45,576 bases of DNA from positions 1-45,576 of IMG/VR virus record IMGVR_UViG_3300037961_004642. One strand, written 5' to 3'. Position numbers and translations under genes: made by a program. A model generated the notes under the pieces. That model saw nothing but the letters and a program-made list of their open reading frames with translations. It had not been told where the DNA came from and made no database searches. The stretch comes from a virus. This document shows positions 22,589-44,756 of the stretch, piece after piece. Positions within the stretch are counted from its first letter, which is position 1; each line of letters starts with the position of its first letter.

Positions 22589-22671
22589 GATTTCTCCTTT
22601 GTTGGTCGAACTCGATATGTCGAGTCTTCTACTCGGCAAGCGCGAACAATACCCTAGACACCAGGGGTAGC

Positions 22672-23598
22672 CTACCCTGCGAGGCGTCGGGCTTGTTCGT
22701 CCGCTACTGCCGCCGCAAGTCGAGCCACGTCGTCGTCGCTGAGCGCCCCCACTTGATCGGTGACGAGTCCGGCGAGGTGCGGGGCGAGTTCCGCCGCGAC
22801 CTTGGCGCTGTCGACACCATCACGGGCGAGGAGGGCACGGACACCCTTGAGCGTCTCAACGAGGTGCGCGTTCGTCGCACCCTGCCCCCGCACCCCAGCC
22901 TTGCCGGGGAGCAGTTCCCGTAGTTCGGCGAGAATCGTGGCCGTCGTGTCCTGCGCGACCTGGGATGTTCCCTTGATGTCACGCGAGTTACGCAGTGTCT
23001 CTGCGATGTACCCAGCGATCACTCCGGGCGTCTTCTCGTTCTCCTCGCCGGGGAGAAGCTCCTGATAGAGCGCTCGCAGCATCTTGTCCTGTTCACTGTT
23101 CATTTCGTCCTCCTCGAACGGTGTGGAATCGGTGGCCGCTGCGGTAACGGTGCTGCGGTTGAAGTAGCCCCACGGCGAAACCCTTTGCCGCGTCCTCGGG
23201 TTCCACGTCTCCATGTGCAGATGCGGTCCCGTGACGAGCCCGGTGGCGCCGATCCGACCCAGAACAGTGCCGGGCTGTGTTCGGTCGCCTACCTTGGGGC
23301 CGTCGTCGTGGGGGCGGTGCATGTACCGGACCATCACACCGTTGTCGTAGAGCACGTCGATCGAGTCGCCCGCGTTCCGGTTCGGGCGGTCGAACGTCGG
23401 CCAGTCCGACCCCGGCTCCCACCCGGAACGGAGCACACGCCCACGCCCGGACGCGCGGATGATCGCACCCGCGACGACACCCCGCGACCGGGACGAGAAA
23501 TCGAGCCCATTGTGTGGGCTGCCCGGCGAGTACGGTGGACGGGTCTCGCCATAGTCGAGAACGATCGACGCCGCGGGGAACGGCAGTGGAAGAGTCAT
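22672..23598 (-). CDS. Endolysin, M23 metallopeptidase
   Basis: 308 residues. The M23 zinc site is complete: SPHNGLDF (H29, D33) and TGPHLHMET (H126, H128), with RYMHRP (H94) in between. M23 enzymes cut peptide bridges of the cell wall. The C-terminal half (about 165-308) is helical and charged, without a recognised wall-binding domain. Together with the holin it forms the lysis cassette. The ATG overlaps the preceding stop (TGATG). G+C is clearly higher than in the flanking genes and no CTGTAAAG site is present, which suggests module exchange. Confidence 0.85.
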   Translation of the reverse strand: MTLPLPFPAASIVLDYGETRPPYSPGSPHNGLDFSSRSRGVVAGAIIRASGRGRVLRSGWEPGSDWPTFDRPNRNAGDSIDVLYDNGVMVRYMHRPHDDGPKVGDRTQPGTVLGRIGATGLVTGPHLHMETWNPRTRQRVSPWGYFNRSTVTAAATDSTPFEEDEMNSEQDKMLRALYQELLPGEENEKTPGVIAGYIAETLRNSRDIKGTSQVAQDTTATILAELRELLPGKAGVRGQGATNAHLVETLKGVRALLARDGVDSAKVAAELAPHLAGLVTDQVGALSDDDVARLAAAVADEQARRLAG

Positions 23599-24134
23599 CA
23601 GCCCGCCTCGACGGAGCCCTGGAGGTACAAGCGGTCACCCGCAGTCGGCGCCGCAGGGTACGCGTTCGACAGGTTCCCCACGGACACGATCGGCGCGGAC
23701 GAGTTGAACAGGGACGCCGTGATCGTAGACCCGCCCGTGATACGCGCCTGCACCGGGTACTGAGTTCCCGACTGACGCGCCCACACCCCCGTCCCGACAT
23801 GCATCGTGGCGGAACTCGCCAGCGTCACCGGCACTGAGAAACCGATGCTCCCCGACGCGGACGACGTAGAACCCCACGTCAGCTCGATGATGAACAGCAC
23901 CAGACCGTTCGACCGGCGGTACCTTGCGTCCAGAGTCCCGTTACCGAGCGAGAAACCAGACAGAGAGGGCGTCCATGCGGTGACCGGCTGCATCAAAAAA
24001 CTCTGCGCCCAATCATCAATAAGGTCCATGTTGTTGTTGATCTTGTCGATGTCGACAGTCTCATCAGGTGTGTTAGTGCCCGTGGAACCGCCGCCTGGCT
24101 TGTACAGTCCGAGGAAGGACGTAGTTTCAGCCAT
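23598..24134 (-). CDS. Minor tail / receptor-binding appendage protein
   Basis: 178 residues. The N-terminal pattern FLGLYKPGGGSTGTNTPDET, followed by VDIDKINNNMDLID, is typical of phage tail appendage proteins. The rest is beta-rich, Ser/Thr/Gly-rich, and resembles a trimeric fibre head. GGAGG precedes ATG 24134, which overlaps the end of terS by 8 bases. Like the endolysin it is more G+C-rich than its neighbours. A host-surface role is inferred from sequence style and from pairing with the lysis genes. Confidence 0.65.
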   Translation of the reverse strand: MAETTSFLGLYKPGGGSTGTNTPDETVDIDKINNNMDLIDDWAQSFLMQPVTAWTPSLSGFSLGNGTLDARYRRSNGLVLFIIELTWGSTSSASGSIGFSVPVTLASSATMHVGTGVWARQSGTQYPVQARITGGSTITASLFNSSAPIVSVGNLSNAYPAAPTAGDRLYLQGSVEAG

Positions 24135-24849
24135 CTTGAGCGACCTCCTTTAGACCAGACGTAATCGCCACGGCTTGAGTCTTCATAGTAACCTCATCCA
24201 TTATCAGTTTCAAAGCGTCTTTCTCAACATACTTCTGGACTGCTTCCATGAAGATCAGTACGACCTGACGGGCATTCTGCACATCCTGCTGTTGCGGATT
24301 CCACCTACCTGACATTTCCAGGATCTTCTCAATGGCTCGTGCATCGCCTGATTCCGCATTGGAGATGAGCTTGTTGATGGCCATTTGCACAGAGTCACCG
24401 AGGTTGTTCTCTGCCTGCTCGCGCATGAGCTGAGAGAACAGCTTGTTCCGCATCCAGGCCCGGTACTTCGGCATCGACACTCCGATGCTGGCCAGCTTGG
24501 CGGACGTGGACCGCCCATCGGAAGGGTTCTGAAGGACGAGAAGAGCGGTCGCCTGCTCAGCCGACAGACCGGCCTTCGGATTCATCTCGATTCCCCGGAT
24601 GGCGAGAGCCTTCTTCATCTCCGGGCTGACAAACGCCTTCGACACTTCATCCCGACTGAAGCCGTCCCATTCCTTCAGGATCTCGGAGACTGTCGGGAAG
24701 ATCCCATTCCGTCTGTAAAGAACGTCAGCGGCTGCGAGAACGTGGCGGAACGTTGCGGGCTTGATCCCGGCAGGGACAGGGGACCTCTCCACTCGCCCGT
24801 CTGTGGCGATGAGAACCTCTTCGCCTTCAACCTCGAAAGCCCTACTCAC
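24127..24849 (-). CDS. terS: Terminase small subunit
   Basis: 240 residues. An HTH-like N-terminal region (about 30-75, FPTVSEILKEWDGFSRDEVSK) is followed by the segment common to small terminases: SVQMAINKLISNAESGDARA, then IEKILEMSGRWNPQQ (about 155-190). It recognises phage DNA and recruits TerL. The GTG start overlaps the stop of the 40-residue membrane protein gene (GTGA). It is separated from terL by five genes, an uncommon arrangement. Confidence 0.75.
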   Translation of the reverse strand: MSRAFEVEGEEVLIATDGRVERSPVPAGIKPATFRHVLAAADVLYRRNGIFPTVSEILKEWDGFSRDEVSKAFVSPEMKKALAIRGIEMNPKAGLSAEQATALLVLQNPSDGRSTSAKLASIGVSMPKYRAWMRNKLFSQLMREQAENNLGDSVQMAINKLISNAESGDARAIEKILEMSGRWNPQQQDVQNARQVVLIFMEAVQKYVEKDALKLIMDEVTMKTQAVAITSGLKEVAQDG

Positions 24850-24968
24850 TTCGACCGTCCCGCCAGTTTCGAGATGACCCAGCCGACAGCGGCCACTACG
24901 GCAAATCCTGCAAAGTAGACGAACAGCGCATTGGAGATCGGGTCAGCGATCACATAGATATCTGGCAT
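24846..24968 (-). CDS. Small membrane protein (40 residues)
   Basis: ATG 24968 overlaps the preceding stop by one base (TGATG) and has AGAGGA upstream; the stop overlaps the terS GTG. One hydrophobic segment (about 12-33, NALFVYFAGFAVVAAVGWVI) is followed by the basic tail SKLAGRSK, so an N-out/C-in single-span protein is expected. Tight coupling on both sides supports that it is translated. Function unknown; small single-span proteins can act as antiholins or superinfection-exclusion factors. Confidence 0.65.
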   Translation of the reverse strand: MPDIYVIADPISNALFVYFAGFAVVAAVGWVISKLAGRSK

Positions 24969-25486
24969 CAGCTTGTTCCTCTCTTCTCATGCCACCGAAG
25001 CTGAGACGTGTTCAACTGCTCTACGTGCTGATAGCCCATCTCTGTCAGGGCCTCTCGGATGGCTTCCGGCATGGTGCGCTGTCGCCCATCGGCGTAGCGC
25101 TGCACAACCACATCCGCGACAGCCAACGTCTGCGCCGTCTTCGACACAGAACCGATGGCACGCACCACACGGGCGAACGGGGTGATGCTCGGATCGTCTT
25201 TCACCTTCGCGGGCAGTTTGACCCGGTTCGTGATCCGACGATTCGACACCCACCGCTGGTAGGCGACATCAATGTCTGTGGTCTGGTACTCCGCATCAAA
25301 CTCGTCAACGTCGATTCCCCGGTCTCGCCATTCAGACCACAGTGCCGCTTGGATTCGAGGTGTGACGGATTGGAGCCGTCCCTGCACCAGCCTTCCCAGG
25401 ACGTTCTTACCGAACCCATGCTTTACAGCAAATTCGGTTCGGTTCAGCCCGGTACGGGCGATAGCAAAATCAACGGGATTGCGCAT
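24968..25486 (-). CDS. HTH DNA-binding protein upstream of terS
   Basis: 172 residues from the second ATG (25486), which has AAGGA five bases ahead; the first ATG (25489) is too close. Residues 8-45 (FAIARTGLNRTEFAVKHGFG) form a Cro/CI-like helix-turn-helix. A central acidic segment and a C-terminal helix (TMPEAIREALTEMGYQHVEQ) follow. It could regulate the leftward arm or take part in packaging with TerS. It is the best candidate for a phage transcription factor here, but no operator can be tied to it from sequence alone. Confidence 0.6.
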   Translation of the reverse strand: MRNPVDFAIARTGLNRTEFAVKHGFGKNVLGRLVQGRLQSVTPRIQAALWSEWRDRGIDVDEFDAEYQTTDIDVAYQRWVSNRRITNRVKLPAKVKDDPSITPFARVVRAIGSVSKTAQTLAVADVVVQRYADGRQRTMPEAIREALTEMGYQHVEQLNTSQLRWHEKRGTS

Positions 25487-25494
25487 CATGTTCC

Positions 25495-25728
25495 TTATGC
25501 TCGTTCAATGCTGAACGGATTGGGTCCTGAGTCTTCCGGGTCGAACCACACGGTATCTCCTTCTTCTACGACAACCATGCGCGCATTCCCGACAGGGAGG
25601 TAGAGACGGGATTCCGTGGCCACGATCTCTCCCTGAACAGCACGGTCCTGCACCCACAGCCGAACCTCACGGAAAGTCTGCGGCGTGAACAGTGCACCCT
25701 TCAGGCCGTTTGCGGATTTCTCTTGCAT
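25495..25728 (-). CDS. Small beta-rich hypothetical protein
   Basis: 77 residues. ATG 25728, with GAGGAAG upstream, is preferred to an ORF start 39 bases earlier. The sequence alternates short beta strands (REVRLWVQDRAVQGEIVATE, RLYLPVG, VVVEEGDTVWF), compatible with a small barrel. It directly follows the stop of the preceding gene. Function unknown. Confidence 0.6.
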   Translation of the reverse strand: MQEKSANGLKGALFTPQTFREVRLWVQDRAVQGEIVATESRLYLPVGNARMVVVEEGDTVWFDPEDSGPNPFSIERA

Positions 25729-25729
25729 A

Positions 25730-25969: not shown

Positions 25970-25988
25970 TGTGATCTCCAATCAACGG

Positions 25989-26021
25989 AAAAGGGACTCC
26001 CCCGAATGAGGAAGTCCCTTT
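25989..26021 (-). terminator. Intrinsic terminator between early leftward genes
   Basis: Stem AAAGGGACT (25990-25998 with 26013-26021), loop of 14 bases, followed on the minus strand by TTTTCCG. It lies after the 125-residue gene and before the 79-residue gene. Confidence 0.7.
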
Positions 26022-26039
26022 AGGGTAACACCACCCTAA
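26021..26039 (-). promoter_or_regulatory. TACCCTA motif with inverted partner
   Basis: On the plus strand TAGGGTA (26021-26027) and, six bases later, ACCCTAA (26034-26039) form an inverted pair. On the minus strand the motif reads TACCCTAA, 52 bases upstream of the GTG at 25969. It overlaps the terminator stem, so it may restart transcription just past it or bind a regulator. Confidence 0.45.
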
Positions 26040-26055: not shown

Positions 26056-26433
26056 TCACGAAAGCTCCTTGCGAAGCTGCGCAATCGCACCCTCGATCTT
26101 CGTCACGTCGGAGGCCAGCACCTTGAACGGCGCATCCCCGACCCAACCCTGAAGTGAGAACGACAGCACAGCACGTCCGCTGTACTCCTCCACCGACAGA
26201 AGCACCTCATCGACAGAGACCGACAGAGGCAGCTTGCTCGCGTCCACATCCAGAAGCGGGTCGTCCTTCTTCTTCGCCGTCTTCGGTGCAGGCTTCTTCT
26301 CCGTCACCGCACCAGCAGGGTCAGAGGGCTCACCCTCTTCTGCCGGGTGGGTCACCTGTACGGTCGGCTCTTCATCCGGCGCAGGCTTGTTCTCTTCCGC
26401 AGCCTTCTTCTGGCCATTGGGTGCAGCAGTCAT
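26056..26433 (-). CDS. Acidic/Pro-rich protein with beta domain
   Basis: 125 residues from ATG 26433, the start fixed by AAGGAGG six bases upstream. Residues 1-60 are a disordered Glu/Pro/Lys/Ala mix (KKPAPKTAKKKDD). Residues 65-125 are beta-rich (LPLSVSVDEVLLSVEEYSGR) with a final helix (ASDVTKIEGAIAQLRKELS). No family recognised. A TACCCTAA motif lies 16-22 bases upstream. Confidence 0.6.
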   Translation of the reverse strand: MTAAPNGQKKAAEENKPAPDEEPTVQVTHPAEEGEPSDPAGAVTEKKPAPKTAKKKDDPLLDVDASKLPLSVSVDEVLLSVEEYSGRAVLSFSLQGWVGDAPFKVLASDVTKIEGAIAQLRKELS

Positions 26434-26448: not shown

Positions 26449-26455
26449 TAGGGTA
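26449..26455 (-). promoter_or_regulatory. TACCCTA promoter-like motif
   Basis: Reads TACCCTAA on the coding strand, with TG three bases before it, immediately upstream of the AAGGAGG ribosome site of the 26433 gene. Fits an extended -10 element of form TANNNT. Confidence 0.45.
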
Positions 26456-26496
26456 GACACCAGGCTACAGGGTATTCCGGGTCAGGTCAACGGGGA

Positions 26497-26724
26497 TTAG
26501 GGTGCCTCAGCTACCACTTCCCAGGGACGTGCAGTACGTGTGGTGCCGGTCTCCATTGAGTTGAGGAGTACGTATAGCGACCCAGACCCCGAACTCAGCA
26601 CATACACGCTTACGACCTTCCAACTGATCTTTCCTGTTCGATACCGAACAATCCTCCCAGGAGCGATCTTCTCCTTGTCCAGCATTTCTCTTTGCTCATC
26701 GACGGACGGCATTTTCCAGCTCAT
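26497..26724 (-). CDS. Small beta-barrel-like hypothetical protein
   Basis: 75 residues from ATG 26724 with AAAGAGA upstream. The middle (GRIVRYRTGKISWKVVSVYV, then SLYVLLNSM) is a run of beta strands compatible with an SH3-like fold, followed by a short polar end. It is similar in style to the 105-residue protein at 33083. Function unknown. Confidence 0.6.
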   Translation of the reverse strand: MSWKMPSVDEQREMLDKEKIAPGRIVRYRTGKISWKVVSVYVLSSGSGSLYVLLNSMETGTTRTARPWEVVAEAP

Positions 26725-26737: not shown

Positions 26738-26744
26738 TAGGGTA
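26738..26744 (-). promoter_or_regulatory. TACCCTA promoter-like motif
   Basis: On the coding strand TTGCTACCCTAG, i.e. a TGC-extended -10-type hexamer, 14-20 bases upstream of ATG 26724. Confidence 0.45.
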
Positions 26745-26848: not shown

Positions 26849-27157
26849 TCAACTCTTGGTGCCCGGCACCGTCCCGGTCAGGATGTACTGCTCAATCTGG
26901 GAAGCAACATCAATCAGATCATTCGGGCCGTCGAGGGTATCGAGGAACCCCCGCTGTGCGTACTGAATGGCCTGCATCCGAATGTTGGTGCGGACCTCAT
27001 CCACATCCTCCGACACAGGCTCATTGCTACCGTCAGTCGACTGCTCAGTCAGCCCCTCCAGAACGTCAATCGCATTCAGTATTGTCCTCTGGTCTCTTCC
27101 TGTGGCCCACTTCAAAGTCTCTCGAAGCTCTACAACAAGGTCAGAGTGGTTAGTCAT
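26849..27157 (-). CDS. Hypothetical helical acidic protein
   Basis: 102 residues from ATG 27157 behind AAGGAG, overlapping the upstream gene by 8 bases. Predominantly helical and acidic; no motif recognised. The N-terminal part (DLVVELRETLKWATGRDQRT) and C-terminal part (LIDVASQIEQYILTG) could form a small bundle. Early leftward gene of unknown role. Confidence 0.6.
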   Translation of the reverse strand: MTNHSDLVVELRETLKWATGRDQRTILNAIDVLEGLTEQSTDGSNEPVSEDVDEVRTNIRMQAIQYAQRGFLDTLDGPNDLIDVASQIEQYILTGTVPGTKS

Positions 27158-27341
27158 GTCGATCTCCTTCTTTCATCAGTTCTTCAAATCCAACGGGCTC
27201 AGCAGTCAGGAAGTGTTCGACTGCCTCTGCTGCCTCTTCCTTGGACTCGTAATAGCCCAGGTGTGTTCCTCCGCGCATGTTCAGCCGAATGGCTATGGCA
27301 GGCCATCGGAAGTCTGCTGACGGATGGTCTCTACGTCCCAT
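27150..27341 (-). CDS. Small AP2-like / single-domain protein
   Basis: 63 residues. ATG 27341 is chosen because AAGGAG lies in front of it; an in-frame GTG at 27365 has none. The segment IAIRLNMRGGTHLGYYESKE, continuing EAAEAVEHF, resembles the strand-strand-helix end of AP2-type DNA-binding domains found in phage homing proteins, by eye only. It is the first gene of the leftward arm. Confidence 0.55.
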   Translation of the reverse strand: MGRRDHPSADFRWPAIAIRLNMRGGTHLGYYESKEEAAEAVEHFLTAEPVGFEELMKEGDRHD

Positions 27342-27359
27342 TCGAATCTCCTTCTTATC

Positions 27360-27554
27360 AGTCACCGATCTGGTGTGTCTCTAGGGTAGCATAGCTCCCT
27401 GTCTGAGTCTAGGGTATGTGAGGATTGGGGCTGTGGGTTAGGGTAGTCAAGGAAACTGCATTTGTCAGTGTGGTAGCAGTCAAATAGATGAATGCTCCTC
27501 CTTCCTTACAAGATGCTTTGATGAATCCAAGTTCAACCTCAACGGGAGACAGAC
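27360..27554. promoter_or_regulatory. Divergent promoter region between the two arms
   Basis: This gap separates the first leftward and first rightward genes. Leftward, three TACCCTA motifs stand in series (plus-strand TAGGGTA at 27382, 27410 and 27439). The one nearest the gene reads TATGCTACCCTAG, and CCTTGACTACCCTAA is the farthest. Rightward, TTGTCA (27462-27467) and TAGATG (27485-27490) are 17 bases apart, a plausible sigma-70-type promoter. This is likely the main early control region. Confidence 0.6.
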
Positions 27555-28071: not shown

Positions 28072-28151
28072 AGGTTTGACATACCCCTAAGAGGTACGTA
28101 CAGCCTCAGTACCCTAGTCCGCCCTATCTCTCGGCCACCCTATATACCCTA
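28072..28151 (+). promoter_or_regulatory. Candidate promoter cluster
   Basis: TTGACA (28076-28081) with TACAGC 17 bases on gives a weak sigma-70-type pair. Two TACCCTAG motifs (28110 and 28145) follow, the second as TATACCCTAG, 54 bases upstream of the next start. The region is non-coding and marks the beginning of a new unit. Confidence 0.55.
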
Positions 28152-28204: not shown

Positions 28205-28405
28205 ATGAATGCAGGCAAAAAAGTCCGCACGCAACTGACAAGCAAATCCGGGAACTCGATCAACGTCTACGGACAACTGACCGAGGAGGGTAACTACGTA
28301 GCAGCATGGACTGCCAGCCAACACCTTGGCTACTTTCGGATCGAACGTTTCGCCGGCAGCACACTCACTGCACGCACATTGCACGACCTACTGACAGGAG
28401 CATAA
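28205..28405 (+). CDS. Small hypothetical protein
   Basis: 66 residues from ATG 28205 behind GGGGAAG. Starts basic (MNAGKKVRTQLTSKSG), then a beta-rich part (INVYGQLTEEGNYVAAW) and a helical end. Its stop overlaps the next ATG (TAATG). Function unknown. Confidence 0.55.
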   Translation: MNAGKKVRTQLTSKSGNSINVYGQLTEEGNYVAAWTASQHLGYFRIERFAGSTLTARTLHDLLTGA

Positions 28406-28699: not shown

Positions 28700-28882
28700 T
28701 AATACCCCCCGCAAGTTAAACTTTCAAACACTTCCCTCTGACCTGGGCTTTTGTGCCAAAACTTTCTTTTGAGCCACCCTAGTCACCCTAACTACCCCAA
28801 ACTTTCTATGGACTTTCCAAAGAGCAAGTACCCTAGACTCGATCCCACACCTACCAGCAACACCGACAGAGAGAGACGCACC
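28700..28882 (+). promoter_or_regulatory. Non-coding control region with three AAACTTTC repeats
   Basis: AAACTTTC occurs at 28718, 28759 and 28799, spaced 41 and 40 bases, about four helical turns, so all face the same side of DNA. Two are preceded by CC and A. The A+T content is higher than around it. A TACCCTAG motif (28829) stands 54 bases ahead of the next start. CACCCTA variants occur at 28775 and 28784. Operator array or origin-type iterons are both possible. Confidence 0.45.
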
Positions 28883-29254
28883 ATGAGCACCGAACTAGCC
28901 GCAGAGTACGCCGACAGCCTTGTCGAGCAGATCCGAGAGAACGTGTCGAATGGAACCCCGTTCGGCGTTTCGACAGAGGATGAGCCGATCCTGGACCGTG
29001 AGCCGGGCGACGAGGGCAGCGCAATGGATTACCTCTCGGACGTGCTGGACATTCAGTACATCGTGGACAGTGACCGCACGTACCGCGCTGGTCGTGTGCT
29101 GATCACATTCGGTGGGCCTAACGCCTGGGTCAACACACAGACCAGCAACCTGGAGGTTGCATGGTGGAGCGACACCGAATATCGGTCACTTCCCGCAGAG
29201 TTCATCAGCGGGCTCGATGGGGCACTTGAAGAGCTGTGGGAGATGGGCGCATGA
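28883..29254 (+). CDS. Accessory protein (123 residues)
   Basis: Start at ATG 28883 (MSTELAAEYADSL); an earlier in-frame start would lie within the control region. Weak ribosome site (GAGAGAC). Acidic, with central strands (AGRVLITFGGPNAWVNTQTS). The general pattern is common among small proteins of actinobacteriophages; the function is unknown. First member of a run of G+C-rich accessory genes. Confidence 0.65.
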   Translation: MSTELAAEYADSLVEQIRENVSNGTPFGVSTEDEPILDREPGDEGSAMDYLSDVLDIQYIVDSDRTYRAGRVLITFGGPNAWVNTQTSNLEVAWWSDTEYRSLPAEFISGLDGALEELWEMGA

Positions 29255-32331: not shown

Positions 32332-32594
32332 CATTCAATCTCGCCAAGACAGTCAGCCCCGGCAAGGGGAGACTGTGGAGCATCACCCATCAGCCAAGGA
32401 AGCAGACCAAACCCGTCCGTCTTGAACTTCGACAGAGGACCATCGACGCGAACCACAAGCATGCACCGCTGAGCTTCACCCGTCTGCTAGGGAGCATCGA
32501 CACCATTGCAGACGAAACCTCACTGGTCGAGGCAGCAAAGGATCTTCTCACGCGAGTCGGGAAGGTAGACGACCTGATCGGAGTGTACGAGTGA
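32328..32594 (+). CDS. Small basic protein (88 residues)
   Basis: ATG 32328 is chosen because it overlaps the preceding stop (ATGA). Basic N-terminal half (KGRLWSITHQPRKQTKPVRL) and helical C-terminus. Precedes and is coupled to the winged-helix gene. Function unknown. Confidence 0.55.
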   Translation: MTFNLAKTVSPGKGRLWSITHQPRKQTKPVRLELRQRTIDANHKHAPLSFTRLLGSIDTIADETSLVEAAKDLLTRVGKVDDLIGVYE

Positions 32595-33028
32595 AATGGT
32601 CACTGTCTCAGGAGATTGTCGAACAGGCACTGCTCAAAGCCCCAAAGACGACACGACAGCTCATTGATGAGACGGGCTACACCTACCCGACAGTGAAGCG
32701 AGCGCTAGATCGAATAGAAGAGCGTGGGCAGCTCAAGAGGACGGCCACACGACCTGTTCGATTCTCTCTCCTGTCGGTTGATGGGGAAGAATCCCTTTCC
32801 CTTGTCGAACCTCTACGGATTCCCATGCTGGAAGTCGGCCCACGTTGGCAGGCAGGGTCGGAGAAGCTGGGCAAGGAGATTATGAAACTTGATCTTCGCG
32901 TCTCCTCACTGGGGAAGTCGATCAAGATTCTAGAGGCGGAGGCAGCGTCGATACTTGGGGTACTCGCTGTCCTCCGCGCTCTAGAAGATGGGCCGGACTG
33001 GCGGGAGCAGATTGGGCTGCCTGCTTGA
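32591..33028 (+). CDS. Winged-helix DNA-binding protein
   Basis: 145 residues from GTG 32591 (GTGA overlap). Residues 1-60 form a winged helix: IVEQALLKAPKTTRQLIDET, then GYTYPTVKRALDRIEERGQL and a basic wing (KRTATRPVRFSLL). The C-terminal half is a coiled-coil-like helix (about 95-130) likely for dimerisation. A transcription regulator role is the natural reading. It stands immediately before the promoter of the replication genes. Confidence 0.7.
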   Translation: MKWSLSQEIVEQALLKAPKTTRQLIDETGYTYPTVKRALDRIEERGQLKRTATRPVRFSLLSVDGEESLSLVEPLRIPMLEVGPRWQAGSEKLGKEIMKLDLRVSSLGKSIKILEAEAASILGVLAVLRALEDGPDWREQIGLPA

Positions 33029-33053
33029 CCTTCTACCCTAGCCAGAGTAGGCT
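33025..33053 (+). promoter_or_regulatory. Promoter ahead of the replication module
   Basis: TTGACC (33025-33030) and TAGGCT (33048-33053), 17 bases apart, fit a sigma-70-type promoter (TANNNT -10). A TACCCTAG motif lies in the spacer (33034) and a CTGTAAAG copy overlaps the -10 (33052-33059). The next start codon is 30 bases on. Confidence 0.6.
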
Positions 33054-33082: not shown

Positions 33083-33400
33083 ATGACTGAAGTAGCAGCA
33101 GGGCAGGTATGGCGGGACAAGGACAAGCGACGCAACACCGCTGTCCGAATCGAAAGCGTCAATCCTCTGGAGGTTACCGCTCGTGTCGTGGGGACGACCG
33201 AAGTGCGAACCTACGGCCTTGCTCGTTTCGCTCACAGATGGAAGATGTCCTCAGACGTGCGGAAGAAGCAGGGAGTATACATGCTCAAAATGGCATGTAA
33301 TCAGGACCCGACATACTTCCTCCGCATGACTCAGACGAAGATCGACAACTGGGGTGCCCCTCTCTGCCCCTGCCATCACGAGGCGATGATCGAAGCGTGA
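33083..33400 (+). CDS. Small SH3-like / zinc-site protein
   Basis: 105 residues from ATG 33083 with AGGAG upstream. N-terminal VAAGQVWRDKDKRRNTAVRI, then ESVNPLEVTARVV, looks like a small SH3-type barrel. The C-terminus has CPCHHE plus an earlier Cys, a possible metal site. It overlaps the helicase GTG by four bases, so the two are translated together. Function unknown. Confidence 0.6.
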   Translation: MTEVAAGQVWRDKDKRRNTAVRIESVNPLEVTARVVGTTEVRTYGLARFAHRWKMSSDVRKKQGVYMLKMACNQDPTYFLRMTQTKIDNWGAPLCPCHHEAMIEA

Positions 33401-36171
33401 GCGATGCAATCACGAAAGAGCGCCACGACCTCGCTGCTGATGCAGCAAGTCGAGAACGCTCAGTGCAGGATCGTCGTGCTGCTTACGAAGAGCACTTCCG
33501 AGGTCTGGCACAAGGTCACGCCTGGTTCGATGGGATCTTTGCTCATCAATGGGGAGGTGCCTGTTATGGTGCAGTGGCTCGTCGTTGGTTTCTTGGAGAC
33601 GAACCTGGAGCCGGTAAGGGGTCTCCCTTGTGGGAGAAGGTCCTCACACCTACTGGCTGGACAACTTACGGAGCGATCTCTGAGGGAGACCGAGTTATCG
33701 GATCTGACGGGAAAGCACATCGTGTCACAGGCGTCTACCCTCGGGGTGTTCTCGACACCTACCGCGTGACGTTCAACGATGGAGCCTCTGTGGTTGTCGA
33801 CGGCGATCACCTATGGGAAGTTCAGACCAAGAGGCAGTCGCAAGGGGGCTATCACGCTCAGGCCATCGCCACCACAGACCTCCTAGAGCTTATCAAGACA
33901 GCCACGTATCGAATCCCCCAGGTAGCTCCTGTCGAGTTCGACATGGCAGGGGATCTGCCTTTGCATCCGTACGTACTGGGGGCCATTCTCGGTGACGGCT
34001 ACCTCTCACAGAAGAGTTCCGTATCTATCACCTCAGAAGACCCTGAGATCATCGAGAGGATGCAATCCCTTCTTCCTGACGATGTGAGTTTGAACGCCTG
34101 GGCGGTAAATGGACATACCCCTGCCTGGGGGCTAGTGTCACACGGCAGGCGTGGGCTAATTCCCGGGATCATCAAAGACCTGGGTCTTGCAGGTACGAAG
34201 TCTGCGACGAAGTTTATTCCCGCGCAGTACCTCCTGTCATCAGCCGAAGATCGTCTAGAAATGATCCGAGGACTAATGGACACAGATGGGCACGCCACCA
34301 CAGCAGGCGTTGAGTACGTCACAGTGTCGCCCAGCCTTTCAGAAGGAATGACGTTCCTGGTGCAAAGCCTAGGGGGGACGGTAAGAACATCAACTAAGAC
34401 CCCTACGTACATCAACCGCCACGGCAATAAGATCAACGGGCAACTTGCTTACCGACTGAGCTTCAACATGCCAGAGGGCATGATCCCATTCTCGCTGAGC
34501 CGTAAAGCAGACAAATACCGCCCGTCATTCAAATACCCGCCTCTTCGTTCAATCAAGAGCATCGAGCCAGAAGGACGAGAAGAAGTCGTCTGCATCTCTG
34601 TCGATTCTCCTGATGCCTTGTATGTCACTTCGGACTTTATCGTGACCCACAACACGAGAACTTCAATCGCTTGGCTGGATCTCATTGGGGCCACGCGGGT
34701 CATCCTTGTGGCAGAGGCGAATATCTGCGCTCAGTTCGCTGGTGAAATCATGGACCTTGCTCCTCACCGCACCATTGTCAACCTTGCCGGGTTGACCCGA
34801 CAGACCCGACACGAGCGCATCAACAAACTCCTCCGCAAGAAGGAAGGGGTTGTCGTCCTCAACTACGAGATGTTCCGCCGTGATGAGGAGGCGCTGGGGA
34901 AGATCCTTCAGTGGCGTGCCGACACACTTCTTGTCGATGAAGCGCACAACATGAAGAGCACCAAGACGGCGAACTACAAGTATGTCGAGAAGCTCGCTTT
35001 CGCTCACAACACATGCCCCGACTGCGACAGCCTGGTATACGGACTCAACAGGCCGTGCGGCTCATGCGGGTGGAGAATCGAAGAGGGCGGTGTTCGTACC
35101 TGGGATCGTGAAGCCTCTACGGACAAGGAGAAGTTCCTCAGCACACGGTCTGTAAAGAACATGCTGTTGCTGACAGGGACGCCCGTACTCAACACCCCTG
35201 TAGACCTTTACAGCATCTACCACTTGATCGACCCCGTAGCATTCCCCTCTGAAGCATGGTTCAAGCGTGTGTTCACGAAGCCTGACTACTCGGCACGTCG
35301 ACACACTTTCACTCCGAAGGGCCTAGAACGCATTCAGTCACTGCTGAAGGGCCGCTACCTGGCACGGACGTTGAAGGAAGTGGGGATTGATCTTCCGAAA
35401 CAGCGTATCCACATCGAGCGTGTCGAAATGGACCCGAAGAAGTACCCGCTCCAGGCGAGGACTGTCGAGCAGGTAAGCAAGCACGCGGCGGTGATGTTGT
35501 CGAGCGGTGAGACAGCGACACTCATGCATGTCATTGCAATCATTCTCCGCAAGCGACAGGCAAACGTCTGGCCTGGCGGCATCACCTTTAAAGACCCGAA
35601 CACAGGAGAGATTCTGTTCTCTGTCGGGCAGGAGGTCCAAGAGTCCTGCAAGATGGACGCCGCACTAGAGCGCATCAAGGAGTACCACAAGGAGGGACGG
35701 CGACAGATCGTGTTCAGTCAGTTCCAAAGTGCTCTCGCAGAGTTCGAGAGCCGGGTCAATGCAGCAGGTATTCGGGCTGTGCGGTTCGATGGCTCAACTC
35801 CTGGTCGACTTCGGGAAGCTGTAAAGAACAACTTCTATGCGGCAAAGGGTGAGGAAGCCAAATGGGACGTTGTTCTGGTTCACTACAAAACCGGTGGCGC
35901 TGGCTTGAATCTCACTGCTGCAACAGTGACTCACATTCTCGATGAAGAATGGAATGCCGGGAAACGTGACCAGTCATATGCGCGTTCGCACCGTATGGGA
36001 CAAACGCAGGAGACGGACGTGCATGTATACCGAGTGCCTGCGAGTGTTGACGTGTGGATGGCGAACTTGATCCACATGAAAGAACGAATGGTCAACAAAC
36101 TTGGAGAGGCTATGTCTTCTGAGAAGCAGAAGAGTCTCATTATCAATGCGATCAAAAAGGGAGAAATCTAG
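33397..36171 (+). CDS. SNF2-type helicase interrupted by an intein
   Basis: 924 residues as encoded, 579 after removal of the intein (75-419). Extein motifs: Walker A GDEPGAGK/T split by the intein at K74/T420, DEAH box near 514-517, LTGTP near 591-595, GGAGLN near 833, and RSHRMGQ near 863-869, the classical SNF2 motif VI. A zinc-ribbon insertion (CPDC and CGSC, about 540-560) lies between motifs II and III. Such enzymes translocate on duplex DNA and in phages act in replication or branch processing. The GTG start overlaps the previous stop. Three CTGTAAAG/CTTTACAG sites are in the gene (35150, 35206, 35819). Confidence 0.85.
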   Translation: MSDAITKERHDLAADAASRERSVQDRRAAYEEHFRGLAQGHAWFDGIFAHQWGGACYGAVARRWFLGDEPGAGKGSPLWEKVLTPTGWTTYGAISEGDRVIGSDGKAHRVTGVYPRGVLDTYRVTFNDGASVVVDGDHLWEVQTKRQSQGGYHAQAIATTDLLELIKTATYRIPQVAPVEFDMAGDLPLHPYVLGAILGDGYLSQKSSVSITSEDPEIIERMQSLLPDDVSLNAWAVNGHTPAWGLVSHGRRGLIPGIIKDLGLAGTKSATKFIPAQYLLSSAEDRLEMIRGLMDTDGHATTAGVEYVTVSPSLSEGMTFLVQSLGGTVRTSTKTPTYINRHGNKINGQLAYRLSFNMPEGMIPFSLSRKADKYRPSFKYPPLRSIKSIEPEGREEVVCISVDSPDALYVTSDFIVTHNTRTSIAWLDLIGATRVILVAEANICAQFAGEIMDLAPHRTIVNLAGLTRQTRHERINKLLRKKEGVVVLNYEMFRRDEEALGKILQWRADTLLVDEAHNMKSTKTANYKYVEKLAFAHNTCPDCDSLVYGLNRPCGSCGWRIEEGGVRTWDREASTDKEKFLSTRSVKNMLLLTGTPVLNTPVDLYSIYHLIDPVAFPSEAWFKRVFTKPDYSARRHTFTPKGLERIQSLLKGRYLARTLKEVGIDLPKQRIHIERVEMDPKKYPLQARTVEQVSKHAAVMLSSGETATLMHVIAIILRKRQANVWPGGITFKDPNTGEILFSVGQEVQESCKMDAALERIKEYHKEGRRQIVFSQFQSALAEFESRVNAAGIRAVRFDGSTPGRLREAVKNNFYAAKGEEAKWDVVLVHYKTGGAGLNLTAATVTHILDEEWNAGKRDQSYARSHRMGQTQETDVHVYRVPASVDVWMANLIHMKERMVNKLGEAMSSEKQKSLIINAIKKGEI
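33619..34653 (+). other. Class 3 intein with LAGLIDADG homing endonuclease
   Basis: 345 residues inserted after the Lys of Walker A, a common intein site. The first residue is Gly, which cannot start normal splicing. The three residues that define class 3 inteins are present: Trp two after the block B His (GDHLWEV, intein 66), Cys in block F (VVCISV, intein 325) and Thr before the last His-Asn (VTHN, intein 343), followed by extein Thr. In class 3 splicing the block F Cys attacks the upstream junction. Both endonuclease motifs are intact (LGAILGDG, GLMDTDG), so mobility should still be possible. Confidence 0.88.
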
Positions 36172-36172: not shown

Positions 36173-36295
36173 ATGATCTGTGAGGCATGTGGTCGAGTAG
36201 TAGATGAGCTATGGCAAGCAGGACAGGACCGAGAAGGAAGACACCTGTTCGTCTGCGATAGCTGCATCATCGAACCGACAGGAGTAGGGCTCTAG
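36173..36295 (+). CDS. Zinc-finger micro-protein (40 residues)
   Basis: ATG 36173 two bases after the helicase stop, with GGGAG upstream. Two Cys pairs (CEAC near the start, CDSC near the end) separated by about 23 residues form a likely zinc-binding finger. The stop overlaps the next GTG (TAGTG). Many actinophages carry such tiny zinc proteins; role unknown. Confidence 0.6.
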   Translation: MICEACGRVVDELWQAGQDREGRHLFVCDSCIIEPTGVGL

Positions 36296-37047
36296 TGCCG
36301 TTCATCACAGGGATCTGCAACGCCTGTGCCGCAGGCATTCTAGAGGAGTGCGAGAACCCCGAGGAAGTGCCAGGGCATCCTGAATGGATTATCCCGTGTG
36401 CCGGGAAGTTCGAAGGGCTGGCAGTCCAGGTCGTCAAGGGAGAGCCCGGACAGATCGGTAGGCCCCCTCTCGATCCCGGCAAGGTCACAGACCCCACCAG
36501 TACAGGCAGGAAGCGGGCGAAGATGCTCGCACCGATCCTCGCTGGACAGAGGTGCGGCTGGGCCGGACTGAAGCACGCTGGAGGCGGTGTTACCCCGATC
36601 CTTGGCTGCAACGGCCATCTCATGGTCGAGAAGAAAGGTGGCGAGGGAGACCACTATCAGGGCGACAGGCACCACGGCCCCGATAAGAACACACTCAACA
36701 ACAGTGTCGGAGTCAACCTTCATTCGGTCTGCGTTGAGTGCCACCATCGGTGGCACGCACTCAATGATGAGTTCTATGACGAAGAGGGCAGACCGACCGC
36801 TGAGTTCCCTTTCCTTCCTGTCGAGGCGTACTACCTGCATGATCCGAACACTGCCTTTACAGAAGAAGAGTACGAAGTAGCTGAGGCATGGTGGGATCTT
36901 CCGAGGTTTGACCGAGGCCCGTATCCGTTCAGCCCGCCAGATGAGGCGAAGAAAGTGTTGCCCATGCTGCCTCAGCCTGCTACCCTAGACCCTACGGAGA
37001 ATCCATTCCCGGATTCGCCGTTCGCAGAGATTGGAGACTCTGAATGA
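36295..37047 (+). CDS. HNH-type endonuclease-like protein
   Basis: 250 residues from GTG 36295. Several Cys pairs lie in the N-terminal part (CNAC, later Cys 35, 87, 105). The centre has a His-rich segment DHYQGDRHHGPDKN (119-132), and CVECHHRWHALN (146-157) gives the C-x-x-C-H-x3-H ending of many HNH nucleases. The first catalytic His cannot be fixed by eye. In phages this type may nick or resolve replication intermediates. The C-terminal 60 residues are Pro/acidic. Confidence 0.6.
   Translation: MPFITGICNACAAGILEECENPEEVPGHPEWIIPCAGKFEGLAVQVVKGEPGQIGRPPLDPGKVTDPTSTGRKRAKMLAPILAGQRCGWAGLKHAGGGVTPILGCNGHLMVEKKGGEGDHYQGDRHHGPDKNTLNNSVGVNLHSVCVECHHRWHALNDEFYDEEGRPTAEFPFLPVEAYYLHDPNTAFTEEEYEVAEAWWDLPRFDRGPYPFSPPDEAKKVLPMLPQPATLDPTENPFPDSPFAEIGDSE
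36981..36987 (+). promoter_or_regulatory. TACCCTAG motif inside gene end
   Basis: CTGCTACCCTAG, i.e. TGC-extended, 57-63 bases upstream of the exonuclease start and inside the last codons of the HNH-like gene. Same orientation as transcription. Confidence 0.35.
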
Positions 37048-39178: not shown

Positions 39179-39185
39179 TACCCTA
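39179..39185 (+). promoter_or_regulatory. TACCCTAG promoter-like motif
   Basis: TGTGCTACCCTAG, TGC-extended, 44-50 bases upstream of ATG 39229 in a 55-base gap. Candidate promoter for the recombinase gene. Confidence 0.5.
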
Positions 39186-40162: not shown

Positions 40163-40163
40163 C

Positions 40164-40835: not shown

Positions 40836-41135
40836 ATGCCTACAATTGATATCATAGGGTATCTAGCTGAGAATTCACAAGATTTCGGCCTTCCCGACCC
40901 GAAAATCAAGCCAGATTCTTTTCTCTCTGCCGCATTGTCTATTGCCGTGGACTTGGATTCTGTCGGAGTGAAGTGTTTCATCCTGAAGCACGTTCCCCAC
41001 AACCAAATCGAATGGTCTGTCTATTTGCGCGGACATCGACACGAGGTGTGGGATGCAATGGTGAATGACGCATTGTCTTCTGCTCTTGTCGACCGTGCCA
41101 TTAGCAGAATCAACGAGGGGGCTGGTTCTGAATGA
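40836..41135 (+). CDS. Small hypothetical protein before primase-helicase
   Basis: 99 residues from ATG 40836 behind GGAGGA. Mixed alpha/beta with a beta middle (VGVKCFILKHVPHNQIEWSV) and C-terminal helix. Lower G+C than most genes. Its stop overlaps the next ATG. Function unknown. Confidence 0.6.
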   Translation: MPTIDIIGYLAENSQDFGLPDPKIKPDSFLSAALSIAVDLDSVGVKCFILKHVPHNQIEWSVYLRGHRHEVWDAMVNDALSSALVDRAISRINEGAGSE

Positions 41136-42925
41136 CCAAATCAGACGACCTCAGAGCTTTCTTCGATCAAGTCTGGAAAGACACTGAAGGATACGTCTAC
41201 CTTCCTGTAAAGGGAGTCAATGGCTTCAAGAAGTTTATGATTCCCTGGCCTCGTAAGGCAGACGCCGTAGTCAACCATGTCCTTACGTACGCCGCTGACG
41301 AAACCAGCCAGGTGTTCTACAGCCCGGCAATCTACTCCAAGCCGAAGCCGACACAGGACAATGTTCTAGGGTCCTGGTACGCCTGGTGTGACTTCGATGG
41401 GAACTTCCCTGACGAGTGGCCTGAGAACATCGCTCCGCTGCCGACAATCGAGATCCAGAGCAGTACCTCGAAGAAGAGGCACACCTATTGGGCGATGAAC
41501 GAACTCATCCCCGGCAAAAAGATAGCCGAGATCAACAAGGCGCTCGCCTATGCTCTTGAGGCCGACCTGTCGGGATGGGATGCAAGCCAGTTCCTTCGCC
41601 CTCCGTTCACTGTCAACCGCAAATACAGCAAGCCGATCACCGCGAAGATTCTGAAGAACCGTCTTGACCGTCGCTACACTGTCGAGTCGTTCGCGCACAT
41701 CCCGAAGCCGAAAGAAGCAATCGCCTCCCACATCGAGTTGAACCAGCTTCCTTCTGTCGATGAAGTTCTCGCAGAAGCCAAGTGGGACGGTGAACTGCTG
41801 AAGCTCTTCCGTACCTCGGGGGACGAGATGCAGCGAGCAGGGCGCGACCGTTCCGGTGCGCTCCAGAGGCTGGCGTATGAGGGTGCGGAGCACGGATGGT
41901 CCGATGAGCAGATCATGGTCACGCTCACGGACGCTGACGACCGCTGGGGGAAGTACGTAGGCAGGAACAATCGCAAGAAGATCCTTGTCGACCTCATCAA
42001 CCGGGCCAGGCAGAAGGTCGGCTATGAGCCGACAGCAGAGCTAGAGGGACTGGCTAAGGCCCTTACTAAGTCTCCTGTCGAAGAGGACGATGACCAGATT
42101 CTTTTCTCTGTCGATGAACTGGCCACGCTCAAAGGAATTGAGGACTGGCTGGTAGGCGATCTTCTCACTCCTCGTGGCATGGGACTTTTCACTGGGCGAC
42201 CCGGAGTCGGGAAGACGCAGGCTAGTTTCCAGTTGGCTGCTGATCTTGCGTCAGGGCGACAGAGCTTCCTTTCCCGTGATCTTCCCGGCAAGCCGACTCG
42301 TGTGCTGTACCTCAGTTTGGAGATGAACAAGCATCAGCTTCCGCACATCGCCAAGCCACTGAGTGAGCGGTACCCCGATCTGGTGCAAGACAACCTTATG
42401 GTCTACGCCAAGGGGGAACGTCTCCCTTTGGATCAAGACAGCGGGCAGAACTACTTTGAAGTCCTCGTTGACAAGTTCAAGCCGAAAGTGGTGTTTGTCG
42501 ACTCGCTGAGCCACATGGTGGCTGCTGATCTGACCAGCGATAACGAGATGAAGGAAGCATTTGAGTTCCTTCAGCGTGCACGAAACCAATTCGACTTCGG
42601 GCTCATCATCGTGCATCACCACAGGAAGAAAGCGAATGATGCCGCGAGTCGGAAGAACCCGAACAGCCTCAGCGATGTGTACGGCTCGTTCTACATCACC
42701 GCTGCTGTCGACTTCGTGCTCGACCTAGAAGTCCTCGCATCTGACGTTGATGAGGGAACGATCACAATGTCTTTGTTGAAGAACAGGTATGCGCCAATTC
42801 CTGAGCCGACAAAGATATCCCGGAACAACAAGTTGCATTTCGAAATCACTGAAGACATGGTGAAACATTTCACAGAGAGAGGGGGAGACGATGACGACGA
42901 CAATTCCCCGAGTCTCGGTCTCTGA
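41132..42925 (+). CDS. Primase-polymerase / RepA-type helicase fusion
   Basis: 597 residues. The N-terminal domain has archaeo-eukaryotic primase features: WCDFDG (D87, D89), a KKRHTYW motif (H117) and GWDASQFLRPPFTVNRKY (D150). A linker with a helical PriCT-like segment (about 225-300) follows. The C-terminal domain is a RecA-fold helicase: TGRPGVGKTQ near 353-362, KVVFVDSLSH near 452-461, and IIVHHHRKK near 493. The protein should both start DNA strands and unwind the fork. ATG 41132 overlaps the preceding stop, and the end overlaps the polymerase gene by 35 bases. It has a CTGTAAAG site (41205). Confidence 0.8.
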   Translation: MTKSDDLRAFFDQVWKDTEGYVYLPVKGVNGFKKFMIPWPRKADAVVNHVLTYAADETSQVFYSPAIYSKPKPTQDNVLGSWYAWCDFDGNFPDEWPENIAPLPTIEIQSSTSKKRHTYWAMNELIPGKKIAEINKALAYALEADLSGWDASQFLRPPFTVNRKYSKPITAKILKNRLDRRYTVESFAHIPKPKEAIASHIELNQLPSVDEVLAEAKWDGELLKLFRTSGDEMQRAGRDRSGALQRLAYEGAEHGWSDEQIMVTLTDADDRWGKYVGRNNRKKILVDLINRARQKVGYEPTAELEGLAKALTKSPVEEDDDQILFSVDELATLKGIEDWLVGDLLTPRGMGLFTGRPGVGKTQASFQLAADLASGRQSFLSRDLPGKPTRVLYLSLEMNKHQLPHIAKPLSERYPDLVQDNLMVYAKGERLPLDQDSGQNYFEVLVDKFKPKVVFVDSLSHMVAADLTSDNEMKEAFEFLQRARNQFDFGLIIVHHHRKKANDAASRKNPNSLSDVYGSFYITAAVDFVLDLEVLASDVDEGTITMSLLKNRYAPIPEPTKISRNNKLHFEITEDMVKHFTERGGDDDDDNSPSLGL

Positions 42926-44741
42926 ATTCCTGGATTGGTTGTACCGTCACCCGGATCAGCCATTGGCAGTTGACACAGAGACAAGAGGCGTAGACGACCC
43001 CTCACTGGGGCTTCGAGTTGACGACAATAGAGCCATTTGTATTGGCATCTCGTTCAGCACACGCATCAAAGGAAAGATGCAGTCTGCATACGTTCCGACA
43101 GCACATGTGATCGGAAAGAATGCAGACGAGAAGACAATCTCTCGCCTGAAATACGTGCTCAAACAGGGCAGACCGCTGATCTATGCGAACTGCCAATTCG
43201 ACATGCTCAGCCTGGAAACACTGGGTATTCGGGTGTCGGAAATGCCTTTCTACGACATTCAGACAATGGCCAATCTGGTGCGTGAAGACTGGCCCATAAT
43301 GAAAAGCCTTGACATGCTCGCCACCGTCTATCTTGGGGATGACGAAGGAAAGATCAAGGAATGGGATTATGTCGAATACGAGGAGATGAAGAACGGCAAA
43401 CTTCGTCTCCGAAAAGAGTCGACACTGGACTGGCAGAAGAAGAATGGGTGGCCGACAGCCACACCTGAGATGATCTACGACTATGCCTGTGTCGACACAG
43501 ACCAGACATATCGCATATGGGAAGCGCTCATGCGACACCCGAATTGGAAAGAACAGCCGAAGGATCTGTGGGACAACAAGCAGAAACTGATCCGAGTCCT
43601 CGTGGAGATGAAGCGGAGAGGTATCCGGGTAGACACAGAACTAGCCCACGAACTGGAGCTTGAGGGCACGGCTGTAAAGGAAGAACTGCTCAAGCGGCTG
43701 GGAGGGCTGAATCCTAGTTCTGTAAAGGATGCCCCGAAAATCTTCCTGGAGAAGCTGGAACTGCCTGTCCTGAAGAGGACTCCGAAAGAGGCCCCGAGCT
43801 TCACGAAGGCAGTGTTGGAAGAATACGACATGATCCTCTCCAACCGAGAAGGCCCTCAGCCTCCCGAGGTGGGATACGTCAAGGCATGGCGGGGCTGGAC
43901 AACAGCGATGGGGCTTTTGCTTCGCCCATATCAGGAGCGGGTTTCGCCGGATGGAAGACTGAGAACCAGCTACACCACGCATGTCACTTCGACAGGGAGG
44001 TTGTCAGCGCGAGAGCCGAACCTTCAGCAGATATCGAAGGAGGGCGGGAGCCCCTGGAACAACCGGGTGAAGAAGTGCTTCCTACCGAAGCCGGGCTACC
44101 GGCTTCTGTCTGCGGACTACTCTCAGCTTGAGCTTCGTTTGGCTGTCGCGTACGCACAGGAACCTGAGCTTCAAGCCATCTTCGATGAGGGACGTGACAT
44201 CTTCAGCGAGATGGCAGCAGAGATGGGATGGCCCAGGCCGAAGACGAAGAGCTTTGTCTACGCGACACAGTATGGGGGCGGGGATGCCCGAATCTCTTAC
44301 ATCTTCAACGTCAGCATCGAGCAGGCTAAGCAACTGCGAGAGAAGTTCTACCGGAAGTATCCCCGATTCAGGAAGCTCGACATGGCATGTCGGTCGAGGG
44401 TGCAGGAGACGAAGAAGCTGAAGCTCTGGTCTGGCCGCATCCGACACTTCCGTAGTGCGGAGGAGAGCTACAAGGCGATGAACGCTCTCTTGCAGGGTGG
44501 GGCAGCGGATGTGGTTGAGCGGGTCTGGGTGCATGTGATGGACGTGCTGGACAGTGAGGGCTGTCGCTGTCTTCTTCAGGTCCACGACGCTCTTGTCTTT
44601 GAGGTTCGTGAGGATCTGGTTGAGGAGTACCGGGAGAAGATCCGTGTCGTTATGGAGGACGTGAACGGTATTTGTGACCCTGGTTCGACAGAGCCGCTAT
44701 TTCCGGTGCGGTTCGCGGTCGACGTGACCGACTGGGAGTGA
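42891..44741 (+). CDS. Family A DNA polymerase with 3'-5' exonuclease
   Basis: 616 residues. Exo I LAVDTETRG (D28, E30), Exo II ANCQFDML (D104) and Exo III YDYACVDTDQT (near 197-207) indicate a live proofreading domain. Polymerase motif A SADYSQLELRL (near 407-417), motif B RPKTKSFVYATQYGGG (near 449-464) and motif C LLQVHDALVFE (near 561-571). Motif B has Phe-Val-Tyr in place of the more usual Asn-Phe-Gly part. It is the replicative enzyme. Two CTGTAAAG sites lie 48 bases apart (43672, 43720), the closest pair apart from the two at 16.6 and 35.2 kb. Confidence 0.92.
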   Translation: MTTTIPRVSVSEFLDWLYRHPDQPLAVDTETRGVDDPSLGLRVDDNRAICIGISFSTRIKGKMQSAYVPTAHVIGKNADEKTISRLKYVLKQGRPLIYANCQFDMLSLETLGIRVSEMPFYDIQTMANLVREDWPIMKSLDMLATVYLGDDEGKIKEWDYVEYEEMKNGKLRLRKESTLDWQKKNGWPTATPEMIYDYACVDTDQTYRIWEALMRHPNWKEQPKDLWDNKQKLIRVLVEMKRRGIRVDTELAHELELEGTAVKEELLKRLGGLNPSSVKDAPKIFLEKLELPVLKRTPKEAPSFTKAVLEEYDMILSNREGPQPPEVGYVKAWRGWTTAMGLLLRPYQERVSPDGRLRTSYTTHVTSTGRLSAREPNLQQISKEGGSPWNNRVKKCFLPKPGYRLLSADYSQLELRLAVAYAQEPELQAIFDEGRDIFSEMAAEMGWPRPKTKSFVYATQYGGGDARISYIFNVSIEQAKQLREKFYRKYPRFRKLDMACRSRVQETKKLKLWSGRIRHFRSAEESYKAMNALLQGGAADVVERVWVHVMDVLDSEGCRCLLQVHDALVFEVREDLVEEYREKIRVVMEDVNGICDPGSTEPLFPVRFAVDVTDWE

Positions 44742-44756
44742 TACCCTAATAGGGTA
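44742..44756 (+). promoter_or_regulatory. Perfect palindrome TACCCTA-A-TAGGGTA
   Basis: Two half-sites of the TACCCTA motif face each other around one central base, directly after the polymerase stop and 31 bases before the next start. The symmetry suggests binding of a dimeric regulator, or two overlapping divergent promoter elements. Confidence 0.55.

Follow-up and report, generated by a model that had tools for sequence, protein, structure and literature searches.

In Actinobacteria, leaderless genes are transcribed from sigma-A promoters, in which a TANNNT hexamer precedes the start codon by about 12 bp (PMC3160421). The repressor of the cluster A mycobacteriophage L5, a protein of 183 residues, binds as a monomer to asymmetric 13-mers via two domains (PMC9283540). 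Cluster EC Microbacterium phages contain an 18-bp intergenic motif, TAGaCTATaGGTgTaAgC, the function of which was reported as unclear (PMC7302621). Here the heptamer TACCCTA is described, which is repeated throughout IMG/VR record IMGVR_UViG_3300037961_004642. The entire record of 45,576 bases was analyzed and is called the window in the following. It belongs to a virus of soil actinobacteria of a podovirus family, and its host would be Microbacterium or a close relative. On balance, the results favor the view that TACCCTA is a -10 element of the host type, and that a DNA-binding protein of the phage keeps its exact spelling constant. A protein called gp10 is the best candidate for this role.

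The window contains 17 copies of TACCCTA or its complement TAGGGTA, whereas 100 dinucleotide shuffles had 1.01 copies on average and never more than 4. The initial annotation had counted about 17 copies, and all 17 coordinates were verified, showing that the TACCCTA finding is real. It had also reported thirteen copies in sense orientation before a start, with G or A as the following base and with TGC in front in four cases; this was found for 13 of the 17 copies, for 13 of these 13, and for the copies at 26738, 27382, 36981, and 39179, respectively. In an automatic count, 11 of the 17 copies were intergenic and at most 100 nt upstream of a start on the same strand, versus 2.5% of random positions (P = 2.4e-14). 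The distance between the end of the motif and the start codon had been given as 10–65 bases and had to be revised to 13–88 nt. The copy at 19686 had been regarded as the only one deep in a gene; two further copies, at 36981 and 40855, lie within the genes 36295–37047 and 40836–41135. The copy at 36981 also limits the claim that the downstream starts are not coupled to a previous gene: it is located about 60 nt before the end of 36295–37047 and precedes an overlapping, hence coupled gene. The copy at 19686 is no noise, as an antisense copy is kept in the terminase gene of four relatives.

The conservation of the motif was analyzed in the two closest relatives. The closest isolate is Microbacterium phage Shocker, which has a terminase identity of 72% and is annotated without an integrase. 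The third member of the clade, G001 (IMGVR_UViG_3300046814_000005, 45,631 bases), was recovered via alignments, which were used because a query with the AAA-ATPase and a single-protein terminase scan over viral contigs yielded few or no relatives. Shocker contains 25 copies of TACCCTA and G001 contains 20. As a control, the reversed word was counted in G001 and was present once. The enrichment in sense orientation upstream of genes was highly significant in both phages (P = 1e-18 in Shocker, 2e-12 in G001). The sites at 26449, 33034, 36981, and 39179 have a counterpart ahead of the orthologous gene in both genomes, and the site at 28829 has counterparts by gene order. Thus, the motif precedes corresponding genes in the window, Shocker, and G001, in agreement with the proposal that it is a promoter of a phage family. 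Among all TANNNTA words, only TACCCTA/TAGGGTA was enriched in the three genomes (62 versus 3.1). Four unrelated Microbacterium phages (Burro, Hamlet, ArMaWen, Quhwah) showed no enrichment and had 0 to 2 copies, and thus the common host genus does not account for the motif. Motif discovery revealed no excess of TACCCTA in the distant relatives DS1 and ctEqG8 and at most a weak hint of TATGCTA in Jasminevirus. In a search of the literature on Microbacterium phages no mention of TACCCTA was found.

The geometry of host promoters was determined with 400 kb of a single Microbacterium genome, which included 348 starts having an upstream gap. TANNNT hexamers had a sharp peak at 6 nt before the start codon (45 cases), followed by 7 nt (16 cases), and only 0 to 4 cases were found at other distances. 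The middle bases of these leaderless hexamers vary, and TACCCT was present in 1 of 61. In the phages, TACCCTA was found five bases ahead of an ATG and without a Shine-Dalgarno sequence at four sites, i.e., Shocker 538, 695, and 3570 and G001 34379, and the resulting spacing of 6 nt after TACCCT is identical to the host peak. Shocker 3570 and G001 34379 both precede gp10, and the small open reading frame (ORF) after Shocker 695 is unannotated. The minimal distance of all sense sites to an assigned start was 5 nt. No -35 box was enriched above shuffles near TACCCTA sites, as the initial annotation had expected. Its proposal of an extended -10 element was supported with regard to the -10 function, which is indicated by the host-like leaderless spacing, and the TG one base upstream of the hexamer was a tendency (17 of 44 sense sites). 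Taken together, there is good support for TACCCT as the -10 hexamer of sigma-A promoters, because the leaderless spacing of 6 nt matches that of the host and no -35 box stands out, and judged from the sequences this reading is very likely correct. The phage sites are thus similar to actinobacterial leaderless sigma-A promoters in the class of the hexamer, in the 6-nt spacing to ATG, and in needing no -35 box. They differ from them in that CCC and the following A are fixed throughout the phage genomes, whereas host hexamers carry no information in their middle bases and are rarely followed by A.

Several features indicated that the motif is under a selection that exceeds the needs of a promoter. 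Overall, TACCCT was followed by A in 62 of 90 cases, and upstream of starts in 26 of 27, versus 2 of 61 host promoters, in which G is dominant. Near-copies of the form CACCCTA were clustered with true sites: 5 of 6 were at most 60 bp away from one, compared with an expectation of 0.26. In addition, tandem true copies of TACCCTA were common. Sites within genes keep rare codons: five phages have GAT AGG GTA in the terminase gene, and the rare codon is ATA in 40836–41135 and CTA in 36295–37047. AGG makes up 6.8% of the Arg codons, GTA 9.5% of the Val codons, ATA 2.6% of the Ile codons, and CTA 3.3% of the Leu codons, and across the window, Shocker, and G001 the codon is kept for just 30–39% of the conserved amino acids. 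Two of these rare-codon sites are antisense and are therefore selected for something besides a downstream gene. Indirect support for the further suggestion that a regulator site overlaps the promoter comes from the constancy of CCC and A, from the near-copies, and from the conservation of antisense sites, and it is nearly an even possibility that a phage protein also reads TACCCTA. Promoter-like placement, leaderless spacing, conservation with orthologs, and selection beyond promoter needs are thus supported by the sequences, and binding of a protein, its identity as gp10, and repression are what we infer from them.

The following mechanism is proposed. TACCCT would serve as the -10 hexamer of the TANNNT class in host sigma-A promoters of most early and middle transcription units, without a conserved -35 box. 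The exact spelling TACCCTA, within the 12-bp consensus WRN-TACCCTA-RA, would be kept constant by a second reader of these bases, a sequence-specific DNA-binding protein encoded by the phage. This protein would switch these promoters, most simply by shutting down early transcription, and would also act at the antisense sites.

The best candidate for such a protein, gp10, has 173 amino acids and is encoded at 24968..25489 on the minus strand. It has 70–73% identity to the versions in Shocker and G001, and homologs are present in G003 to G008 and in many contigs of other lineages, some of them above the Pfam cut-off for HTH_3 and HTH_31. The AlphaFold2 model, which was based on an alignment of 20 sequences, had a predicted local distance difference test score (pLDDT) of 95.4 and consisted of two tandem Cro/CI-like helix-turn-helix units, with helix starts at residues 5/17/28/44 that are repeated at 104/115/126/142. 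It replaced a first model built from two sequences, which was poor (pLDDT 55). The N-terminal unit could be superimposed on 434 Cro with a Z score of 6.5 and a root mean square deviation of 2.1 over 57 residues; the C-terminal Cro-like unit was assigned by its helix pattern only. Profile searches against solved structures yielded no significant match. A Foldseek search against the PDB yielded no E value under 0.001, and the L5-type repressor was not among the matches listed, which excludes nothing. A structural relative of gp10 was found in Jasminevirus. The assignment of gp10 as the protein that reads TACCCTA is tentative. A second candidate regulator is a MarR-like winged helix-turn-helix protein (32591..33028, plus strand), which among these genomes is present only in the window clade and in G007.

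The arrangement is reminiscent of the cluster A mycobacteriophages L5 and TipsytheTRex. L5 has more than 20 asymmetric short sites, the phages described here have about as many, and in both cases they are mostly oriented with transcription and located in promoters or short gaps. The repressor of L5 and gp10 are of similar size (183 versus 173 amino acids), and two helix-turn-helix-like units, as in the repressor, are predicted for gp10; this is a parallel of the working principle, gp10 being known here from sequence and model. In contrast, L5 is temperate and its sites are 13-mers. In the phages described here, the site falls on the -10 element itself, and no lysogeny genes were identified in the Shocker annotation and in the part of the window proteins that was covered. 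The motif TAGaCTATaGGTgTaAgC of the EC phages is also repeated, uniform, asymmetric, and located 21–30 bp upstream of starts, and it contains TAGACTA, which has the form TANNCTA. It differs in being longer and in that EC phages encode a sigma factor. The EC phage Quhwah (L200) has eight copies of TAGACTA, all upstream of genes, and its motif may be a promoter too.

More distant relatives of the window have other uniform words in comparable locations. In G008, TGGTAAACTAAC was found six times, always in sense orientation and upstream, and it fits TANNNTA. G006 has seven copies of CATACTAA with the near form CATACTA, and an antisense copy is present near the end of the terminase gene, 18 codons off the window position. 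In a group of contigs with about 50% G+C, TACGCTA was the most enriched TANNNTA word (92 versus 28 expected), and the next base was A in 31 of 32 cases upstream of starts and mixed elsewhere; some of its in-gene copies lie within conserved protein sequence and may be uninformative. Two contigs (L088, L089) have TAAGCTA. G007 has the word CTACCTCA, with 27 copies of TACCTCA versus 2.45. Apart from the word of G007, all lineage words (TACGCTA, TAAACTA, CATACTA, TAAGCTA, TAGACTA) end in CTA. Lineages with such words also have gp10. G007 has an antisense copy of CTACCTCA in the terminase gene, which is aligned by codon with window position 19686 and has the same phase. A single type of trans-acting factor, the specificity of which changes, would best account for this agreement, but it concerns one site in a genome with about 17 further in-gene copies. 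It is tempting to speculate that across a lytic actinophage family the promoter word of the genome changes in step with a tandem Cro-like regulator, and that one set of sites, including the antisense terminase site, is respelled by each lineage in its own word (TACCCTA, TACGCTA, TAAACTA, CATACTA, CTACCTCA). Such an L5-like operator code on the -10 element is a doubtful generalization at present.

Some observations weigh against a -10 element that is read by gp10. The window is devoid of a leaderless TACCCTA gene, and its nearest sense site is 13 nt away from a start. The gp10 gene of the window has no TACCCTA directly ahead, although it is present in Shocker and G001. The word CTACCTCA of G007 is no TANNNT hexamer, and thus the -10 reading is not carried to every lineage. 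In the partial contigs G003–G005 gp10 is present and no uniform promoter word was found. In addition, the agreement of gp10 type and word between lineages is possibly due to shared descent alone.

Four other explanations were considered. Ordinary host sigma-A promoters, with a uniform strong -10 spelling chosen for activity and no phage regulator, would account for the placement, the leaderless spacing, and the missing -35 box, and the late genes of the same phages indeed use ordinary leaderless TAGGAT-type promoters. However, the host avoids A after the hexamer and varies the middle bases, and the CACCCTA near-copies, the conserved antisense sites within genes, and the differing fixed words of the lineages would be left unexplained, making this explanation unlikely. 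Pure operators or stoperator-like sites of the L5 type, the -10 resemblance of which would be coincidental, would fit the many asymmetric copies that mostly run with transcription (13 of 17 in the window), the tandem and antisense copies, the candidate protein with tandem helix-turn-helix units, and the word of G007, which is no -10 hexamer. Yet four sites have exactly the leaderless -10 spacing, TANNNTA is matched by the words of three lineages (the window clade, the TACGCTA lineage, and G008) and nearly matched by CATACTA of G006, and such a coincidence appears rather improbable.

T4 gp55 recognizes a strict -10 word and needs no -35 box. Promoters for a phage-modified RNA polymerase or a phage sigma factor would likewise have one strict -10-like word and no -35 element, and cluster EC phages, which have the similar fixed word TAGACTA, encode a sigma factor (PMC7302621). 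But the scanned window proteins showed no domain of a sigma factor, although a divergent one may exist, early sites need to function before any phage protein exists, and the leaderless spacing fits the host sigma-A; of all explanations this one was given the least credence. The last A could also be kept by symmetry, because TANNNTA reads as TANNNT on both strands and would set divergent starts 18 bp apart, which is the commonest spacing in bidirectional promoters of Escherichia coli (PMC12825309). TACCCTA and TAGGGTA both contain TANNNT, in several lineages the last A hardly varies upstream of starts, including the 26 of 27 cases of TACCCTA, and by the same arithmetic AGGGTANNNT of the late junctions gives 23 bp, likewise a common spacing. 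In contrast to the E. coli promoters, the phage sites are known from sequence and have fixed central bases, symmetry would leave the fixed CCC unaccounted for, and at most sites the genes served are all on one side; it is improbable that bidirectional transcription is the basis of the motif. A host-type -10 element with a spelling held by a phage protein thus remained the preferred explanation.

A second class of promoters was found at late genes, which have leaderless TAGGAT or TARRGT promoters with a spacing equal to that of the TACCCT promoters, and orthologous promoters are present in Shocker and G001. In the window, all on the minus strand, TAAGGT (6590..6595) stands six bases before the ATG of 1367–6583, TAGGAT (8859..8864) six bases before the ATG of 8646–8852, and TAGGAT (11540..11545) seven bases before the ATG of 11062–11532. 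In the relatives, several antisense TACCCTA copies at late gene junctions overlap late leaderless promoters and may be by-products of them. A role of TAGGGTA at these junctions as a translation signal was also considered and was dropped, as the junctions hold leaderless TANNNT promoters.

The leftward sites of the window (minus strand) include a promoter-like TACCCTA at 26021..26027, for which the nearest well-supported start is far off. It runs straight into an intrinsic-terminator-like hairpin (25985..26020, minus strand) with a stability of -22.4 kcal/mol, which is reduced to -9.5 when it is trimmed near the predicted +1. The predicted +1 is inside the hairpin stem, so that the site's own transcript would miss part of the stem. 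The promoter may thus be positioned in such a way that upstream transcripts stop at the hairpin and its own transcripts pass. A CACCCTA near-copy is located beside it on the opposite strand (26032..26038, plus). The site at 26449..26455 is 15 nt before the start of 26056–26433, and the sites of the orthologs are at Shocker 1915/1927 and G001 32963/32975; the near-copy TACCCTG (26468..26474, minus) is 19 bp upstream of it. TGC-TACCCTA at 26738..26744 is 13 nt before the ORF 26497–26724, and a CACCCTA near-copy is found at 26498..26504 (minus). The ORF 27150–27365 is preceded by a tandem trio, i.e., TGC-TACCCTA at 27382..27388 and TACCCTA at 27410..27416 and 27439..27445, the last of which is at a distance of 73 nt.

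In the early rightward region (plus strand), the sites at 28110..28116 and 28145..28151 are 88 nt and 53 nt before the ATG at 28205, respectively, and a CACCCTA near-copy (28136..28142, plus) stands 9 bp upstream of the latter. A series of the near-copies CACCCTA, CACCCTA, and TACCCCA (28775..28799, plus) is followed by the site at 28829..28835, 47 nt before 28883–29254, the gene-order counterparts of which are Shocker 44321/44343 and G001 30359/30389. The site at 33034..33040 is directly 3′ of the winged helix-turn-helix gene, with Shocker 41825 and G001 27867 in the equivalent place. TGC-TACCCTA at 36981..36987 is within the 3′ end of 36295–37047 and ahead of 37044, and its rare CTA codon is kept at Shocker 38741 and G001 23633. 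TGC-TACCCTA at 39179..39185 lies between the genes for a Cas4-like exonuclease and the AAA-ATPase, and Shocker 37379 and G001 21065 are in the equivalent place. Two copies at 44742..44748 (plus) and 44750..44756 (minus) are the left and right arms of the perfect 15-bp palindrome TACCCTAATAGGGTA (44742–44756), right after the stop codon of the DNA polymerase I gene. Shocker has two tandem sense copies at this place, and in G001 the right arm is the sole arm kept (15345, antisense).

The antisense copies comprise the site in the 3′ part of the terminase gene (19686..19692, plus), at which the codons GAT AGG GTA are also present in Shocker, G001, L018, and L020, the site at the start of 40836–41135 (40855..40861, minus), at which the rare ATA codon is kept at Shocker 35339 and G001 19240, and a copy in an intergenic gap that is antisense to the late operon (22650..22656, plus).

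Three additional observations were made. The Shocker record (L009) has an identical TACCCTA context at both ends (63 and 45010), which suggests terminal direct repeats of several hundred bases. The gene for an SNF2-type helicase (33397–36171, plus) has an inserted LAGLIDADG homing-endonuclease domain, which is probably an intein. In addition, another word, CTGTAAAG, has 28 copies in the whole window versus about 0.6 expected, mostly in genes and on both strands (e.g., 3658, 9574, 33052, and 43720 on the plus strand and 2087, 21180, and 36855 on the minus strand). It is often in frame as (A/S/P)-V-K with a rare GTA codon. Shocker and G001 have 45–46 copies, and the word is common to G003–G005. 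Other relatives have other leading words, several of which begin with CTGT (CTGTGGG in Jasmine, CTGTAGG in ctEqG8, CTGTCGG in G008, CTGTCGC in DS1).

Uniform repeated motifs ahead of genes are already known in several actinophage clusters, with a function reported as unclear. Here one such motif could be tied to the geometry of host promoters, to a selection stronger than promoter function alone would require, and to a definite candidate protein. Should gp10 bind the motif, operators placed on the -10 element would constitute a genome-wide switch in lytic phages, and the words of the lineages would permit a direct test of the co-change of regulator and site. If true, the conserved antisense copy in the terminase gene would provide a clear example of antisense control under selection.

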